Source: Gammaproteobacteria bacterium
GTDB taxonomy: Bacteria; Pseudomonadota; Gammaproteobacteria; Pseudomonadales; Pseudohongiellaceae
Assembly: GCA_018661465.1 (NCBI GenBank)
Contig: JABJIC010000006.1
Span: 1 to 64,000, forward strand
DNA: 64,000 nt
Direction of reading: 5' to 3'
Shown piece after piece: positions 36,376 to 43,720 of this stretch (position 1 is the first letter of the stretch; each line of letters starts with the position of its first letter). The translations under genes were made by a program, and so were the position numbers. The notes beneath the pieces were generated by a model. That model did not search any database. It saw only the letters and a program-made list of their open reading frames with translations, and had not been told where the DNA came from.

Positions 36376-36416
36376 AGGTCTATATGAGCCTTAGGTCTAC
36401 ATTTGAGTTAGGTCTA
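36376..36416. repeat. Three 17-nt tandem repeats at the end of the deoxynucleoside kinase gene
   Basis: AGGTCTA recurs at 36376, 36393 and 36410, exactly 17 nt apart, with similar spacer sequence (TATGAGCCTT, CATTTGAGTT). The third unit contains the kinase stop codon (minus strand). On the minus strand each unit reads TAGACCT. Confidence 0.65.
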
Positions 36417-37079
36417 TAAAAGAGAAGGGCGAGGATTGAAGTATTGTGTGCCAGTGGGGCGTGTCAGTATATGGCGAACCAGCATCTCATAGTCTTCTTC
36501 GTTGTCGACAAGATCGATTTCAGCACTGTTAACTATCAATAGTGAAGTCTTATCAAAATAGTGAAAAAACTCTGTATAGGACTGATTTAAACTTTCCAGG
36601 TAGTCAACTTCAATGAGTTGCTCGGATTCGATACCACGTCTCTGAATTCTATCTAGGAGGATATCAGTAGGTGCTTGTAGGTAAATGACCAGATCAGGTA
36701 CGGGAGCGTCAATTGTCAGGTGTCGATATACATTGAGATAGAGTTCGTACTCATCGGGCTCAAGGTTTTGTTGTGCAAACAGTTGATCCTTTTCTATTAG
36801 AAAGTCAGCGACGCGAACAGGTTGAAACAAGTCGTTCTGGCGAAGTTCCTGAATCTGCTGTGTACGTTGAAATAGAAAAAACAGCTGTGTTGAGAGAGCG
36901 TGTTGCTTTGGATTTTGATAGAAACGATCGAGAAAGGGATTATTCTCGCTATTCTCCAGCAAGAGATCGTAGTTGAAAGTTTCAGCCAGCCTCTTGGTAA
37001 GAGTAGTTTTACCAACACCAATGGGCCCTTCGACGGCTATGTATTGAGGTAATTCTCTACTAAGGCTGTTTTGAGGCAT
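36414..37079 (-). CDS. Deoxynucleoside kinase family protein
   Basis: The 221-residue kinase phosphorylates deoxynucleosides (dAdo/dGuo-kinase-like) with ATP. Walker A is EGPIGVGKTTLTKRL; the ERS-type base-recognition region reads VRVADFLIEKDQLFA; the lid is RIQRRGIESEQ. Its start codon shares one base with the pcnB stop (TAATG), so it is translationally coupled. In Pseudomonas folK (pterin pyrophosphokinase) occupies this place between pcnB and panB; no folK is found here. Confidence 0.88.
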   Translation of the reverse strand: MPQNSLSRELPQYIAVEGPIGVGKTTLTKRLAETFNYDLLLENSENNPFLDRFYQNPKQHALSTQLFFLFQRTQQIQELRQNDLFQPVRVADFLIEKDQLFAQQNLEPDEYELYLNVYRHLTIDAPVPDLVIYLQAPTDILLDRIQRRGIESEQLIEVDYLESLNQSYTEFFHYFDKTSLLIVNSAEIDLVDNEEDYEMLVRHILTRPTGTQYFNPRPSLL

Positions 37080-38434
37080 TAGTGACTATCGCTGTTGGTC
37101 TTGCGTCGGGGGCGACGCTTTCGACGACTATTTGATGAGTTCAGTTTTTCAATCATCTCATCTCTTTGCTTTGTATCACCGATTTGAAAATCCGTCCACC
37201 ACTGACCGGCTTCACCGAGATTTTCTCCTGACTCCTCTCTAAGAAGCAGAAAATCATAGGCCGCACGAAAACGAGGATGGGCGAAGCAGCTATTTACGTT
37301 TCGACGATTGCGTCGCTCCAACCGATTCTGCAGATCCCAAATTTCGCGGGATGCGGCTGTAAACCTTTTTGGTATTGACGTAAAGGTCAGTTGTTCACTA
37401 ATACAGCTGCTCACAGCCTCAGAATAGATCTGGCCTGGGTTCTGTTCTTCACTCTGTTGCATATTTATTTTTTTCTGGAGCACAGGCCAGAGCAGGGCCG
37501 CATAGAGGAATGCTGGTGTCACAGATTTGCCGATAGCCAATCGACTATCAGTATTTTTTAGTGCGAGTTGAAGTAGTTTACTCGCAGGAGCTTCCGCATC
37601 TTCAATGGCTTCAATAGTAGGGCCGAACAAATATTTCCCGGGATCAAATTCAGCCAGTAGGGCAAAGGTATCAACCGCTTGGCCGCCAGTTAGAAGCTTC
37701 ATTGACTCGTCGAATAATCGAGCAGAGGAGATAGACTCTAGCAAATGTGCCAGGCGATTGATGGGCTCTCGTGTCTCTTTCTCAATTTCAAATTTCAATT
37801 TGGCTGAGAATCGTAATGCCCTGAGCATTCTAACTGGGTCTTCCCGATAGCGCTCTTCTGGATCGCCTATCATGCGAATCTGCTTCGACTGTATATCATT
37901 CAGCCCGGAGCTGAAATCCAGGATTTCAAAATTATCTACAGTGTAGTAGAGGGAATTCACAGTGAAATCTCGCCGCAGCGCATCTTCGTCGATGTTTCCG
38001 TAGACATTATCTCTCAGTATCATTCCTGAGCTGGAATGGGCTGAGTCCAGTTCCTTGATTCGCTTCCGCGGAGCATCATCAGCAATTTCATTTAAGGCTT
38101 CATGAGGGGCCCTGAATGTAGTTACTTCGATAATTTCTCGACCAAAACGGATGTGAACAATCTTGAATCTTCTGCCGATTATTCGAGAGTTGCGGAATAT
38201 TCTGCGAATATCTTCTGGCTCAGCATCAGTTGCTATATCAAAGTCTTTTGGTTGATTTCCTAAAAGCAGGTCGCGGACACCGCCACCCACCAGATAGGCA
38301 TTGAAGCCTTCTTCCCCCAGCTTATACAAAACCTTGACGGCGTTTTTAGAAATATTCTTTCGAGAAATGCAATGTTCATCGCGGCTCAGGCGAATGGCAT
38401 TTTCAATGCCAGGAGGTGAGTTTTGAGGTTTCAT
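37079..38434 (-). CDS. pcnB: Poly(A) polymerase I
   Basis: PcnB adds 3' poly(A) tails to RNA and so marks it for decay. The 451 residues include the nucleotidyltransferase core AYLVGGGVRDLLLG and KDFDIAT (metal carboxylates), RRDFTVNSLYY and RYREDPVRMLRALRFSAK, all more like PcnB than the CCA-adding enzyme. The C-terminal 20 residues are arginine/lysine-rich. It follows the CrcZ-like region and is coupled to the kinase gene, as in the Pseudomonas cbrB-crcZ-pcnB order. Confidence 0.95.
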   Translation of the reverse strand: MKPQNSPPGIENAIRLSRDEHCISRKNISKNAVKVLYKLGEEGFNAYLVGGGVRDLLLGNQPKDFDIATDAEPEDIRRIFRNSRIIGRRFKIVHIRFGREIIEVTTFRAPHEALNEIADDAPRKRIKELDSAHSSSGMILRDNVYGNIDEDALRRDFTVNSLYYTVDNFEILDFSSGLNDIQSKQIRMIGDPEERYREDPVRMLRALRFSAKLKFEIEKETREPINRLAHLLESISSARLFDESMKLLTGGQAVDTFALLAEFDPGKYLFGPTIEAIEDAEAPASKLLQLALKNTDSRLAIGKSVTPAFLYAALLWPVLQKKINMQQSEEQNPGQIYSEAVSSCISEQLTFTSIPKRFTAASREIWDLQNRLERRNRRNVNSCFAHPRFRAAYDFLLLREESGENLGEAGQWWTDFQIGDTKQRDEMIEKLNSSNSRRKRRPRRKTNSDSH

Positions 38435-38640
38435 CGATCCAGGCTACCTGAATGAACAGCATTGGATTCTCTAAAAGCGGAGAATAGAATTTTCAATAAA
38501 GGTACCAGCTTTTCTTTTGTGTGTTGCCAGAGTGAATCGAACAGATGAGTGCTTCATCTGAATCGCCGTGTAGACGGCATAATACACTGAACCACTGCAA
38601 ATTGAATCTACAGGAGAGACAGGGAAAGAGGGGAGAAATT

Positions 38641-38896
38641 TTGGGGGTGGATACCACCCCCCTAGGAAGTAATAATTATTATTATTTTAAACAGTATTTA
38701 TTATTTTTATTAAGCGGATTCCGATACCGAAACCCTAATATGAGGTGGTTAACATGAAGCCTGGTGACAATATGCCGCTTTAGCTCCAACCCTACCTTCT
38801 ATTATTTGATGCACTAACCTTAGTTGTATAACTCAGTAATGCTATTTTTATTTTTATTAAGCTTATTATTATTATTATTTATTTTTATTATTATCC
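38641..38896 (-). ncRNA. crcZ: CrcZ-like small RNA with AANAANAA (Hfq/Crc) motifs
   Basis: The predicted minus-strand transcript starts near 38896, 12 nt past a sigma-54 promoter. It begins GGATAATAATAAAAATAAAT. A-rich AAUAAUAA or AAUAAAAA motifs (AANAANAA) occur at 38863-38892 (several overlapping), 38845-38858, 38698-38705 and 38676-38686. In Pseudomonas, CrcZ lies between cbrB and pcnB, is made from a CbrB-activated sigma-54 promoter, and carries such motifs to sequester Hfq/Crc and relieve carbon repression. Position, orientation, promoter class and motif content all agree here; primary sequence is not otherwise claimed to be similar. The 3' end is uncertain: an 8-bp GC-rich hairpin (38643-38661) is offered as the boundary, but it lacks a U-tract. 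Confidence 0.7.
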
Positions 38897-38906
38897 CTAC
38901 AAACAG

Positions 38907-38923
38907 TGCAGTTACCGTGCCAA
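38907..38923 (-). promoter_or_regulatory. Sigma-54 promoter of the CrcZ-like RNA
   Basis: On the minus strand TTGGCACGGTAACTGCA matches the -24/-12 consensus TTGGCACG-N4-TTGCA with one mismatch. The GG and GC doublets are 10 bp apart as required. The start of transcription would be near 38896. The neighbouring cbrB encodes a sigma-54 activator with an intact GAFTGA loop. Confidence 0.8.
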
Positions 38924-38996: not shown

Positions 38997-39040
38997 GTTA
39001 CGTATATACCCTTTTGTGTGGGTATAAGCGTAGCGGTAAC
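38997..39040. promoter_or_regulatory. Nested palindrome, probable CbrB upstream activating site
   Basis: GTTAC (38997-39001) and GTAAC (39036-39040) enclose TATACCC (39005-39011) and GGGTATA (39020-39026), so two inverted repeats are nested. The array lies about 75-115 bp upstream of the -24 element of the sigma-54 promoter, the usual distance for an enhancer. It is the obvious candidate for CbrB binding; this is inferred from location and symmetry. Confidence 0.5.
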
Positions 39041-39122
39041 AAAAAATCATTGAGAATTAGTTGAATGAGGCATCGCTGTAAGTGCTGAGGATCAGGGCTT
39101 ATGTGTGATAGCTGAGAGCGGT

Positions 39123-40502
39123 TTATATTGCGTGTTTTTTCTTTCGAGGAATTCCAAATCTCTGGCGGCGCTCCCAGAGGCATTTACGACTAATTCCCAA
39201 TTTTTTGGCCAACTGTGTTTCATTCATGGAGTCTTGATGCTCGAGAACGAAGTGCTGGAAATAGTCTTCAAGAGACATTTCCTCTACTGGCTCAGGTGGG
39301 GAGATTTGAGAATCATTTGCCGAGATGTCGCTGACGCTGGTAACTGCTTCACTCTCTATCGCCAATAACTCGGCGGCAATAGTTGTTTCCTCGGCTAAAA
39401 CTACTGCTCGCTCAATCGCATTTTCGAGCTCTCTCACATTTCCAGGCCAGGAATAATTCGCGATTGCGAGGCTGGCTTCATTGCTGAATTTCAATACGGC
39501 TGTTTTAAGTCTTTTACAAGTTCTTAGAAGAATAGCATCCGCCAGTTCAAGAATGTCATTGCCTCTTTCTCGTAGAGGTGGAATCAGAAGCGCCATTACA
39601 TTGATGCGATAGTATAGATCCTCTCGAAACAGACCATCGATTACCAATTGTTTTAAGTCTCGATGAGTGGCAGCAACCAATCTAACGTCGACTTTCTTGG
39701 ATTGCACAGAGCCAACTTTTCGAATTTCATTTTCCTGAAGTACTCGCAAGAGTCTTGCTTGAGCCTCAAGAGGAAGTTCTCCAATTTCATCAAGAAATAG
39801 CGTGCTGCCGCTGGCGGCTTCAACTAAGCCAGTTCGTGTAGCTGTGGCTCCAGTAAAAGCGCCTTTCTCATGCCCGAATAATTCAGACTCGATCAGGTTT
39901 TCTGGAATGGCCGCGCAATTCACTGAGATCATTTCTTCTTTGTTTCGATTGCTGAGATTATGAATTGCTCTGGCGACTAATTCCTTACCTGTACCCGACT
40001 CACCATTTACCAATACAGTTGAATTGGTTAGGGCAACTTTTCTAATTCGTCGGAAAAGCTCCATCATCTGAGGGCAACTGCCAATCATGCCGTGAACAGG
40101 TGGTTCAAAGTCATTAGCTGGGGCAGGGATGTCTTGTTTGCGGTTGCCATGTTCCCGTATTACTTTTGCAAGCGATTCGATAATTTCGTTGTGCTCGAAG
40201 GGTTTAGCAATATAGTCGACGGCACCAAGTTTCATTGAATCAATAGCCGAACGAATACTCGAATAGCTAGTCATGATTAGAACGGGAGTTGAAGTTGCCT
40301 TGATAAGGTCGGTTCCTGGAGCGCCTGGCAGACGTAAATCACTAATGATTACGTCGAAGTCATCCATGTTGAAATTATCGAGTGACTCCTTAACTGAGCC
40401 GGCTTCGCTAACTTGGTATTCGTGCCGTTCGAGTAGGCGCTTCAAAGCAGTGCGAATTACCGCCTCGTCTTCAACTACTAAAACCTGGGTTAATGCTGTC
40501 AT
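39123..40502 (-). CDS. cbrB: Sigma-54-dependent response regulator CbrB
   Basis: CbrB-type NtrC-family activator of 459 residues. The receiver domain (1-120) has the phosphorylatable aspartate in [10 protein letters not shown] and Lys in IAKPFE. The AAA+ domain has [12 protein letters not shown] (Walker A), the sigma-54-contacting GAFTGA in [16 protein letters not shown], and FLDEIGEL (Walker B). A Fis-type helix-turn-helix closes it ([20 protein letters not shown]). In Pseudomonas CbrB drives crcZ and catabolic genes under carbon/nitrogen imbalance. It is followed by the CrcZ-like RNA, and cbrA precedes it by 115 nt. Confidence 0.92.
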
Positions 40503-40617: not shown

Positions 40618-43554
40618 TTAACCCTCATCAGTGGTGTGCTCTGAGCTTTCATCATAGCAGGGAAAGCGTAAAATTACTCGCGTCCCTGTTCCTCGCTCAT
40701 GGTCGACCGGGCTAATTATATCAATATCTCCACCCAAATCCTCCACAATACTGAAAACCAATGAAAGGCCCAAGCCTGTCCCCTCTCCCGCTTCTTTGGT
40801 AGTGAAAAATGGGTCAAACACTCGGTCTTTTATTGCGGCGGGAATACCGATACCTTCATCAGTGACTGAAATTCTGACTTTGCTTCTCACTATTTCCGCA
40901 CACATGAAAATTTTGCTGTTCTCCTGACTTGCATCCCGGGCATTATTAATCAGATTAACCAGTACCTGTAACAAACGTTGAGAGTCTCCAAGAACCTTCG
41001 CAGCTGGATCGCATTCAATATCAAACTCCAAGTCTTTTCGATTCTTATCCAGTGAAATAAAAGTCTTCGCTTCATCCATGCAGTCACTGATCAACACGAC
41101 CTCGTTTGCGTAATGAGTTTTGTTAGTTCCAGCGTGGGCGAAATTAACAAGTGATTGCAAAATCTTGGATGTCCGGTCTGTTTGTTCGATGATTTGTTCT
41201 GAAAGGCTGTTTAACTCATCACTAGGAAATTCATCCCGAATTGTCTGAGCAAGACAGGCAATGCCTGTAATAGGATTGCCAATTTCGTGAGCAACTCCGG
41301 CGGCTAGTCTTCCTATAGACGCAAGTCTTTCACTGTGGGTAAGTCCAGCTTCCAATAGTTCGGTTTCAGTAATATCTTCAATCAGAATAATCAAGCCTTC
41401 GTGACTCGAGTCTTGATCACTATTCGTCTCAATCAGGGCTTTGTGAAGATTTACGGATTTCTTATGACCATTAAACTCAAAATTGTGTTTATAGGAATGA
41501 TTGGTGTCTTCGTTTATAAAATTCAGAATTAGACTGGACCAAGGTTCTTTTAATTCGATTAATTGTGAGCCGACTACATCGGCACTATTGATTTCGGTAA
41601 AGTCGGCAAGAGCCCGGTTCCACATGACCACTTCCTTGTCAAAACTTAAGGAACAAACTCCAAGAGGTAATTCCAAAAGAATCTGTCTGTGATACCTCCT
41701 GAGATTGTCGAGGTCAGCAGCCATGCCGGATAGGTTGCTTCTATAAGCTTCGATTCTATTCTCAATAACATTCAAGTCTGAGCTGCCATGCTGTGAAACG
41801 ATGCTATAGGGTAGATAGCCATCGATAATTTCACGAGCAATTGATGGGCCCAGAAGACCGGACAAATTTGCTTCCAGTCGGCCACGAAGAATCCGCATAG
41901 CATGGGGGCGTCGATCATCGATGCCGATGTTGAGATCTTGCAGTGCTTGTGTAACTTCTCGCGTAGCTGTTTTGTTTCCCAGCGGTTTACTAAGGCCCTT
42001 AATGAAGTCGTCAGGGGTCTTGGCTACCAGGCCGCTACGCTTTCGGCGTTTAATTGTATCGAGTGTACAAATATCTGCTGAGCTTCTTTCTTCGTCAGTG
42101 GTTTTGGTGTTTAGAGAGACCAGAACAAAAACCAGGCTGTTGCTCATCAATGAAAATACTGCAATCTCGCGCCAATTAATTGAGAGCAATGTTAACGATG
42201 CAGTTTCAATAACTAGGGGCAACATGAGAAATGCAAACCAGATACTAAATCCTAATAGTAGCCCGCTAAGAAAACCTTTCTTATTGGCTTGGGGCCAATA
42301 CAAAATTGACAAAATTCCAGGCAAGAATTGCAGGCACGCCGTGAATGACACGGTTCCGATTACATGAAGACTTATCTGTTGCTCAGGTAGAAAATAGAAT
42401 AAAAAACCCGCCCAAATAAGAGCGCTGATAAGTATTCGCCGCTTCCAGGCCAGCCAGCGATAAATATTGTCTCTGGGTTTGGGTTGGTAAATCGGAAGAA
42501 TGAGGTGGTTCAAACACATATTTGAAAGTGCCAGCGTAAGCACTATGATTAAGCCGCTGGCTGCAGACAATCCGCCAAGGTAGGCAATTAAGGTAAATAC
42601 GGGCGATCCATATTCCATGCCGATGGCAACAGGAAAATACTCAACTTGAATTTCGCTCCCTGATTGTAAGCCCGCCCACAAAATAGGTAGCACCGGCAGG
42701 CTGATTAACAGGAAGTATAGGGGTAATCCCCAGCTGGCAACGGAGAGAGCGCGTCGCCCGTTGTTCTCATTGAAAATTGCATAGAACATATGAGGCATGG
42801 CAACCGCGGCAGTAAAGAAAATCAATGCCATTACGTGGAACGAACTGAAATAGTTCGTATTCTTCAGGGTATCTAGCAACTGAGGCTGTTCCTGAAGCCA
42901 GAGATCGAGGCCATCCAAGCCGCCAAATCCTCCACTAATAGCGAAAATTCCAACAGACAAGAAAGCCAGAAGTTTAATCAGGGACTCGAATGCTATTGCC
43001 ATCATCAGGCCGTCGTGCTGATTTCGTCTTGCTCGTTTCGATGTGCCAAACAAGATAGAAAAAAGAGTGATGATTATGCAGAAGCCAAAAGCCAGTGCAT
43101 TTTGAGAGGTCTGGGGAGAAAGAATGTCAGCAGTTTCTGCAACGGCTCTGATCTGTAATGCTATTAACGGAGTCACAGCAACAAGCGTAACCAGGGTTAT
43201 TGCTGTGCCTGCCCAGGGAGAACGGTATCTAAAAGCCAATAAGTCTGCCAATGAGCTAAGTTGATAGGTACGCGTTAGCTCAAGTAGTGGACGAAGAAGA
43301 AGAGGGGAGAATATAAATACAATGGATATGCCAATTGACTGAGCCAGATATCCATAGCCATCGGTGAGTGCATTTCCAACAGAGGTGTAATAAGCCCAAA
43401 CGCTAGCGAAGACTCCCAAAGATAAGACATACACAATCGGGTGGCGAACAATTTTTTCTGGGATCAAACCGCGGTCAGTTGCAAATGCTATTCCGAAAAG
43501 CAGGGCAAGGTAGGAATTACCCAGAATCAGAAGTGTAGTTAACTCAAAGCTCAT
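40618..43554 (-). CDS. cbrA: Sensor histidine kinase CbrA with SLC5 transporter domain
   Basis: The 978-residue protein has an N-terminal sodium/solute-symporter (SLC5) domain of 12 or more helices (about 1-500), a linker/STAC-like region, a PAS domain (about 600-720), a HisKA domain with the phosphohistidine in VAHEIGNPITG and an HATPase with VLVNLINNARDA, DEGIGIP and GTGLGLSLVF. This is the CbrA architecture, in which transport or substrate sensing (histidine in Pseudomonas) is coupled to phosphorylation of CbrB. ATG at 43554 has AGGA 5 nt upstream and overlaps the cbrX end by 11 nt. The frame runs 33 nt further up but without better signals. Confidence 0.93.
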   Translation of the reverse strand: MSFELTTLLILGNSYLALLFGIAFATDRGLIPEKIVRHPIVYVLSLGVFASVWAYYTSVGNALTDGYGYLAQSIGISIVFIFSPLLLRPLLELTRTYQLSSLADLLAFRYRSPWAGTAITLVTLVAVTPLIALQIRAVAETADILSPQTSQNALAFGFCIIITLFSILFGTSKRARRNQHDGLMMAIAFESLIKLLAFLSVGIFAISGGFGGLDGLDLWLQEQPQLLDTLKNTNYFSSFHVMALIFFTAAVAMPHMFYAIFNENNGRRALSVASWGLPLYFLLISLPVLPILWAGLQSGSEIQVEYFPVAIGMEYGSPVFTLIAYLGGLSAASGLIIVLTLALSNMCLNHLILPIYQPKPRDNIYRWLAWKRRILISALIWAGFLFYFLPEQQISLHVIGTVSFTACLQFLPGILSILYWPQANKKGFLSGLLLGFSIWFAFLMLPLVIETASLTLLSINWREIAVFSLMSNSLVFVLVSLNTKTTDEERSSADICTLDTIKRRKRSGLVAKTPDDFIKGLSKPLGNKTATREVTQALQDLNIGIDDRRPHAMRILRGRLEANLSGLLGPSIAREIIDGYLPYSIVSQHGSSDLNVIENRIEAYRSNLSGMAADLDNLRRYHRQILLELPLGVCSLSFDKEVVMWNRALADFTEINSADVVGSQLIELKEPWSSLILNFINEDTNHSYKHNFEFNGHKKSVNLHKALIETNSDQDSSHEGLIILIEDITETELLEAGLTHSERLASIGRLAAGVAHEIGNPITGIACLAQTIRDEFPSDELNSLSEQIIEQTDRTSKILQSLVNFAHAGTNKTHYANEVVLISDCMDEAKTFISLDKNRKDLEFDIECDPAAKVLGDSQRLLQVLVNLINNARDASQENSKIFMCAEIVRSKVRISVTDEGIGIPAAIKDRVFDPFFTTKEAGEGTGLGLSLVFSIVEDLGGDIDIISPVDHERGTGTRVILRFPCYDESSEHTTDEG

Positions 43555-43720
43555 CGGAATCCTGTTCACGATGTGACCAGGCTGCAACTATGATTACTAA
43601 AAATCCAACTAGGAACGGTCGATACCAGGTGCCATCACTCTGGTTGATCCAATCTACGCTTAGCAGAAACAATAAGTAGATTATGATAATTAGTGTCAGT
43701 ATTGATCGAGGTATATACAC
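43544..43720 (-). CDS. cbrX: CbrX-like small membrane protein
   Basis: A GTG at 43720 opens a 58-residue frame: VYIPRSILTLIIIIYLLFLL, then SVDWINQSDGTWYRP, a second hydrophobic segment FLVGFLVIIVAAW and a charged tail. Length, two-helix layout and the YIPRS start and DW--SD-WY-P centre resemble CbrX of Pseudomonas, encoded in the same place between gluQRS and cbrA. Its stop overlaps the cbrA start by 11 nt, so it probably controls cbrA by translational coupling. It starts 10 nt after the gluQRS stop. Confidence 0.8.
   Translation of the reverse strand: MYIPRSILTLIIIIYLLFLLSVDWINQSDGTWYRPFLVGFLVIIVAAWSHREQDSDEL

Follow-up and report, generated by a model that had tools for sequence, protein, structure and literature searches.

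A CrcZ-type RNA between cbrB and pcnB in a Pseudohongiellaceae genome, a predicted Hfq decoy in a family where no Crc was found

The window analysed here, the whole 64,000-nucleotide stretch of contig JABJIC010000006.1, showed the minus-strand gene order gluQRS, cbrA, cbrB, an intergenic gap, pcnB, a kinase gene, panB and panC. The question raised by this locus is whether the gap between cbrB and pcnB encodes a CrcZ-type RNA and, if so, which repressor such an RNA would sequester. The host genome is 97.7% complete and consists of 37 contigs. The original prediction placed the RNA on the minus strand, past cbrB and before pcnB, and the coordinates of the protein-coding genes agree with that placement:

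40618-43587, minus strand: cbrA, SLC5-STAC-type sensor histidine kinase
39123-40502, minus strand: cbrB, sigma-54 activator and response regulator (Sigma54_activat and Response_reg domains)
37079-38434, minus strand: pcnB, poly(A) polymerase and downstream neighbour (TIGR01942, 500.9 bits)

CbrB was 64% identical to Pseudomonas CbrB and CbrA showed 49% identity to CbrA of Pseudomonas fildesensis over 984 aligned positions. Residues 10-600 of CbrA matched PDB entry 10ed with 624.8 bits, an entry deposited as CbrXA SLC5-STAC (PMC13022988). The Pfam search of CbrA detected the kinase domains and did not find an SSF domain. Within the 688 nt between cbrB and pcnB lie a CbrB-type site, a sigma-54 promoter and, over about 255-262 nt, a non-coding unit. 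The elements of the gap, in the direction of the minus strand, are:

39036-39041, minus strand: TGTTAC, forward CbrB-type subsite, 119 nt upstream of the -24 element
38997-39001, minus strand: GTAAC, imperfect reverse CbrB-type subsite, 79 nt upstream, with the last base of the GTAACA form lost
38907-38922, minus strand: sigma-54 promoter TGGCACGGTAACTGCA, identified from sequence, with -24/-12 sites equally placed in homologous gaps
38636-38897, minus strand: CrcZ-type RNA, predicted at about 255-262 nt from promoter geometry, a 28-sequence same-genus alignment and the RF01675 match
38845-38892, minus strand: 5' ARN block with 10 AANAANAA motifs, mostly AATAACAATAAATAATAATAATA in relatives
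38811-38842, minus strand: conserved hairpin GCATTACTGAGTT...AACTAAGGTTAGTGC (helix 1), 98.7% of cells paired in 28 sequences
38676-38711, minus strand: 3' ARN block with 5 AANAANAA motifs by motif count
38643-38662, minus strand: G+C-rich, terminator-like 3' hairpin (helix 4), two-sided changes in 5/9 pairs

The start position first proposed, 38896, lies 12 nt past the -12 GC (38909-38908) of the promoter. The ends of the predicted RNA, as judged from sequence, are near 38897 (5') and 38636-38643 (3'). The 256-nt stretch 38641-38896 contained 15 AANAANAA motifs in the sense direction and 0 in antisense, and these fell into the two main clusters already described, ten at 38845-38892 and five at 38676-38711. 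Dinucleotide shuffles of the same stretch (n = 1000) gave a mean of 1.6 and a maximum of 10 motifs, with 0/1000 reaching 15. The description of the motif as mostly AAUAAUAA holds for this species but not generally, since most aligned relatives have AATAACAATAAATAAT there. A small protein gene was ruled out because ATG reading frames in the 262-nt strand span 6 codons at most.

The 28-sequence alignment showed the same order along the RNA: the 5' ARN block, a hairpin, a structured middle, the second ARN block and the 3' hairpin. Helix 1 had little covariation because it was mostly invariant. The consensus structure had 97.9% of cells paired, compared to 40-54% in slid controls, with two-sided changes in 8/26 pairs; it was derived from the same alignment on which it was scored, which favours it over the slid versions. 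Folding was only mildly better than that of shuffles (z -1.85), which is weak evidence by itself. The 3' hairpin at 38662-38643 aligned with the 3' hairpin of RF01675. A U tract after this hairpin was present in some relatives, and in this species no clear one was seen and a terminator scan found none, which leaves the position of the 3' end uncertain and allows for read-through into pcnB.

Families and genera of the order are referred to by number, f1 being the window's own family, and f21 was taken as Pseudomonadaceae by its best RF01675 scores (more than 260 bits; two Pseudomonas genomes gave 350 and 358). In an Rfam scan of the window no family attained its gathering score. The RNA had been suggested to be missed by sequence searches, which proved incorrect: RF01675 (CrcZ) matched 38615-38878 over the whole model with 24.4 bits (E 1.9e-4), below the cut-off of 95 bits, and this gathering score is a curated cut-off and not a biological defining feature. 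RF01675 matched 0/14 control genomes at E ≤0.001 and 8/14 at E ≤1, so the place of a match counts more than its score. The window's own match was lost under the stricter filters of the order-wide search, and RF01675 alone proves little. With those filters, a search of 390 genomes of the order gave 71 at E ≤0.001 and 19 above the cut-off, and most other families of the order were likewise below it.

A second model, R1, was built on the promoter and 5' block from 43 training units, including those of the window and of Pseudomonas CrcZ. R1 was trained on several of the units later tested, and the units of f8, f27 and f29 and a second copy in a Pseudomonas-family genome were outside the training set. 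R1 recovered that second copy, and it matched a single place in the window's genome. No second RNA copy was found there at E ≤0.1 among the 150 of 643 first-look candidates that were scored. CrcY and CrcX of Pseudomonas species share the promoter and motif logic of the window's RNA and differ in being further copies elsewhere in the genome.

The occurrence of the unit was then scored over the order. A CbrB-related match was found in 137/137 f1 genomes, in some of them only a weak match or a paralogue, and the CbrB profile matched 324/390 genomes of the order at E ≤1e-125. The gaps scored were 90 from f1 (all f1 loci fetched, the window's own included) and 56 from 27 other families, the latter being a subset that omits six named loci (L092-L097), repeated loci from genomes already included and loci lacking cbrB. 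A unit was defined as a promoter score of at least 5 (simple consensus count) with at least three motifs in the following 250 nt. As anticipated for the cbrB-pcnB gap of relatives, a sigma-54 promoter followed by ARN motifs was found in 68/90 gaps of the family and in 53/56 of the others (25/27 other families), Pseudomonadaceae included. Counting the window's own family, the cbrAB-CrcZ module is thereby placed in 26 families of the order. The 146 gaps together contained 1883 AANAANAA motifs in sense vs 122 in antisense, and the first motif was located 12-20 nt past the -12 GC in 102/121 units (range 12-42).

The f1 gaps without a scored unit (22/90) were of several kinds. Two were truncated at the locus end (L022, L025) and seven held 6-17 motifs with no promoter passing score and spacing (L026, L028, L063, L064, L073, L079, L081). 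Five belonged to genus g3 and had 0-4 motifs (L056-L060), with cbrB retained. The remaining eight formed one clade of genus g1 (CbrB tree support 1.0; L065, L066, L069-L071, L075-L077), with gaps of 24-105 nt or none and with cbrB likewise retained. No R1 match to the RNA unit was found in these eight genomes at E ≤0.1, so the RNA has been lost there as far as that sensitivity goes. Outside f1, the gaps without a unit were one each from f7 (13 motifs, no promoter), f8 and f9.

Other arrangements were also observed. In two f8 genomes (L434, L435) a CrcZ unit adjoins pcnB and cbrB is located about 187 kb away (G325) or on another contig (G304). Weak R1 matches adjoining pcnB were found in f27 (E 3.5e-4), f37 (0.094) and f42 (0.048), and matches away from pcnB were found at L438 (f1 genus g3, 6.8e-4) and L445 (f8, 6.4e-4). 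Tandem promoter-plus-ARN units within one cbrB-pcnB gap were present in f6, f12, f30, f39, f45 and f47, with two units each at L252, L259, L270, L277, L281, L282, L283 and L287 and three at L278. The gap of Dasania (L097) likewise had two promoter sites. No R1 unit was found in the two f44 genomes searched (G517, G253), though CbrB-profile matches exist there.

The region upstream of the promoter was compared with the known binding pattern of CbrB. In P. putida, CbrB recognises a forward subsite TGTTAC plus reverse subsites (PMC6296734). TGTTAC or GTAACA was found within the 180 nt upstream of the promoter in 120/121 units, compared to 16.7 +/- 3.6 of 121 units expected from shuffles (200 shuffles, maximum 26), and forward CbrB-type sites were located 100-140 nt upstream in 112/129. 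The conservation of these sites suggests that the unit is tied to CbrB beyond mere position.

The anatomy of the unit, its conservation and its upstream sites can be read directly from the sequences compared. Given the 68/90 and 53/56 gaps with a unit and the 120/121 with upstream sites, CrcZ looks order-wide and the window's RNA looks like an orthologue. The original prediction of a diverged CrcZ homologue was therefore right as to homology, in view of the place, promoter class, CbrB-type sites, motifs, 3' hairpin and weak Rfam match, but the RNA is not a lone case. In a gap of 63% A+T, an A-rich intergenic stretch arising by chance together with an accidental promoter match would be conceivable, and weak RF01675 matches do turn up in control genomes at the lenient threshold. 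This explanation was refuted by the shuffles, none of which reached the motif count, and by the conservation over the order of strand bias, promoter spacing and upstream sites, and its probability is negligible.

The unit could also be no separate small RNA and instead belong to a long sigma-54-driven 5' leader of pcnB, in which the A-rich blocks would regulate pcnB in cis. In its favour, the unit precedes pcnB and is read the same way, no strong terminator separates the two here, and in the two f8 genomes the unit stays by pcnB with cbrB elsewhere. Against such a leader, the unit closes about 208 nt short of the pcnB start at a 3' hairpin that has two-sided changes and, in some relatives, U tracts after it, the gap of some relatives holds two or three tandem units, and Pseudomonas-family genomes carry a second copy elsewhere. 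A cis-acting leader is hence very improbable, and a separate CrcZ-type RNA is the reading followed below.

Crc, the protein that usually partners Hfq, was searched for next. Crc of P. aeruginosa, a co-repressor, has the exonuclease III fold and needs R140 for the Hfq/Crc/RNA complex (PMC6422490). Three proteins of the broad fold were found in the window's genome, and one exonuclease-III-like protein (E ≤1e-15; L186:5851-6621). The latter is the nearest relative of Crc found there, scoring 327 bits against the Crc profile; it has the catalytic N, E, Y, D, N, D, D and H intact, has G at position 140 and falls outside the Crc clade. The Crc clade itself comprised 30 sequences from 26 families with a support of 1.0 (0.998 in an enlarged tree). 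All 30 members deviate from the intact catalytic set at two or more positions and keep K139-R140-R141, and rph lay within the fetched stretch in 24/30.

In the tree of exonuclease-III-like proteins, 0 f1 sequences fell in the Crc clade. The Crc profile was run on 137 f1 genomes, of which 124 matched at E ≤1e-20, and the matching sequences read numbered 90, out of 89 genomes. All 90 keep the six catalytic residues tested, as do further f1 sequences where covered; R at both 140 and 141 was found in 25/90. No crc was found within up to 1.5 kb of rph at 22 rph loci from 22 f1 genomes (23 searched) representing all eight genera, and two matches near f1 rph loci (E 0.1 and 0.6) were attributed to chance. 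The absence of Crc is judged from sequence searches and trees over genomes many of which are incomplete.

The nearest exonuclease III relative was rejected as Crc, given its intact active site, the missing R140 and its position outside the Crc clade. In addition, an intact paralogue and true Crc coexist in sampled genomes of six families (f4, f9, f31, f32, f41 and f47), so these are two separate genes. It is thus unlikely that the RNA is a CrcZ orthologue still paired with a Crc-like protein, the intact exonuclease III paralogue filling the role of Crc: that paralogue has its 327-bit similarity and the retention of both arginines in 25 of the 90 family sequences in its favour, and it is opposed by the unbroken catalytic residues throughout the family, by G in place of the assembly residue R140, by the coexistence in those six families and by four family genomes (83-91% complete) which have no match at E ≤1e-20 and keep the RNA unit (G114/L072, G112/L074, G067/L080 and G071/L083).

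Crc also went undetected in some genomes outside the window's family. In 12/13 f29 genomes and 4/4 f44 genomes the Crc profile gave either no match or a distant one of at most about 76 bits, and the five of these that were read were intact. A CrcZ unit is present in each of the three f29 gaps examined, and none of the genomes they come from has a Crc-like match. As far as these searches reach, f1 and most of f29 have CrcZ and no Crc, and since CrcZ is kept where Crc was not found, the RNA is probably an Hfq decoy without Crc there. The label of Hfq/Crc decoy given in the original prediction could be kept in its Hfq part, as a prediction, but its Crc part is probably wrong because neither the genome nor the family sequences read yielded a Crc-clade protein; the RNA is better labelled an Hfq decoy.

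A single Hfq gene was found in the window's genome. Its product matches the Hfq families and shows Y25, Q33 and Q52, which are named as distal-face residues of Hfq in PMC4063720 and PMC6422490. In P. aeruginosa, CrcZ is 407 nt long, has six A-rich stretches and titrates Hfq via the distal face, and Hfq represses by itself, with reporter repression about halved without Crc (PMC4063720, PMC8266614). AANAANAA was not enriched at gene starts (-40 to +20) of the window, being present at 2/47 called genes with 0.71 per kb vs a background of 0.84 per kb.

Overall, the RNA is best read as an orthologue of CrcZ and a CbrAB- and sigma-54-controlled decoy whose sequestered repressor would most likely be Hfq alone, as no Crc was found (probability about 0.87). 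From the sequence features we infer transcription, CbrB dependence, Hfq binding, titration and a physiological role along the following lines. When carbon is poor, CbrA would activate CbrB, which would bind the TGTTAC and GTAAC sites and activate transcription from the sigma-54 promoter (38922-38907). The product would be a non-coding RNA of about 255-262 nt, whose blocks of A-purine-N triplets would bind the distal face of Hfq. Hfq would thereby be titrated off the start regions of catabolic mRNAs and their repression lifted.

The window's RNA and CrcZ of Pseudomonas and Azotobacter are alike in their place between cbrB and pcnB, the strand, the sigma-54 promoter, the TGTTAC-type sites, the AANAANAA blocks right after the promoter and the G+C-rich 3' hairpin. 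They differ in length (about 255-262 nt predicted, compared to 407 nt in P. aeruginosa; PMC4063720), in the score against the Rfam cut-off (24.4 vs 95 bits), in the spacer hairpins, in the one copy found and in the lack of a detected Crc-clade protein. Relative to the Crc/Hfq carbon catabolite repression of Pseudomonas, CbrA, CbrB, Hfq and the decoy RNA are also present here, and Crc was not found in f1. A similar logic is seen in decoys of the RsmY/RsmZ type, where, as is predicted here, repeated motifs in an RNA made under two-component control titrate a repressor that binds RNA; those decoys differ in the protein (RsmA/CsrA), the motif (GGA) and the regulators.

A 2022 review described CbrAB as unique to Pseudomonadaceae and the order cbrA-cbrB-crcZ only from Pseudomonas and Azotobacter (PMC8871633). 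No report of CrcZ outside these two genera was found in the open-access literature searched. The RNA itself is a CrcZ orthologue, and what is new here is the missing co-repressor Crc. Being spread over the order, the RNA is in itself less surprising, and it gains in usefulness from the absence of Crc: lineages that seem to lack Crc and have the decoy are natural experiments on whether Hfq alone is enough, on what Crc contributes and on which came first. A wider CrcZ model could also draw on the promoters and RNAs aligned here.

A broader reading, to which we incline only slightly, is that CrcZ is order-wide and is a Crc-free Hfq decoy in at least two families (f1 and most of f29), and that the ancestral switch may be CbrAB-CrcZ-Hfq, with Crc built from a copy of exonuclease III as a co-repressor. 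This reading is suggested because the crc locus, beside rph, still holds an intact nuclease in two f22 genomes (L402, L403), one f26 genome (L406) and one f29 genome (L407), and the sampled gaps of these families, including two from f22 and one from f26, hold the CrcZ unit. The intact nuclease at these four loci possibly represents the ancestral state of Crc.

Finally, the kinase gene downstream of pcnB (36414-37079, minus strand) encodes a 221-aa protein of the deoxynucleoside kinase family (PF01712, 141.8 bits), at the place which we take to be occupied by folK in Pseudomonas.
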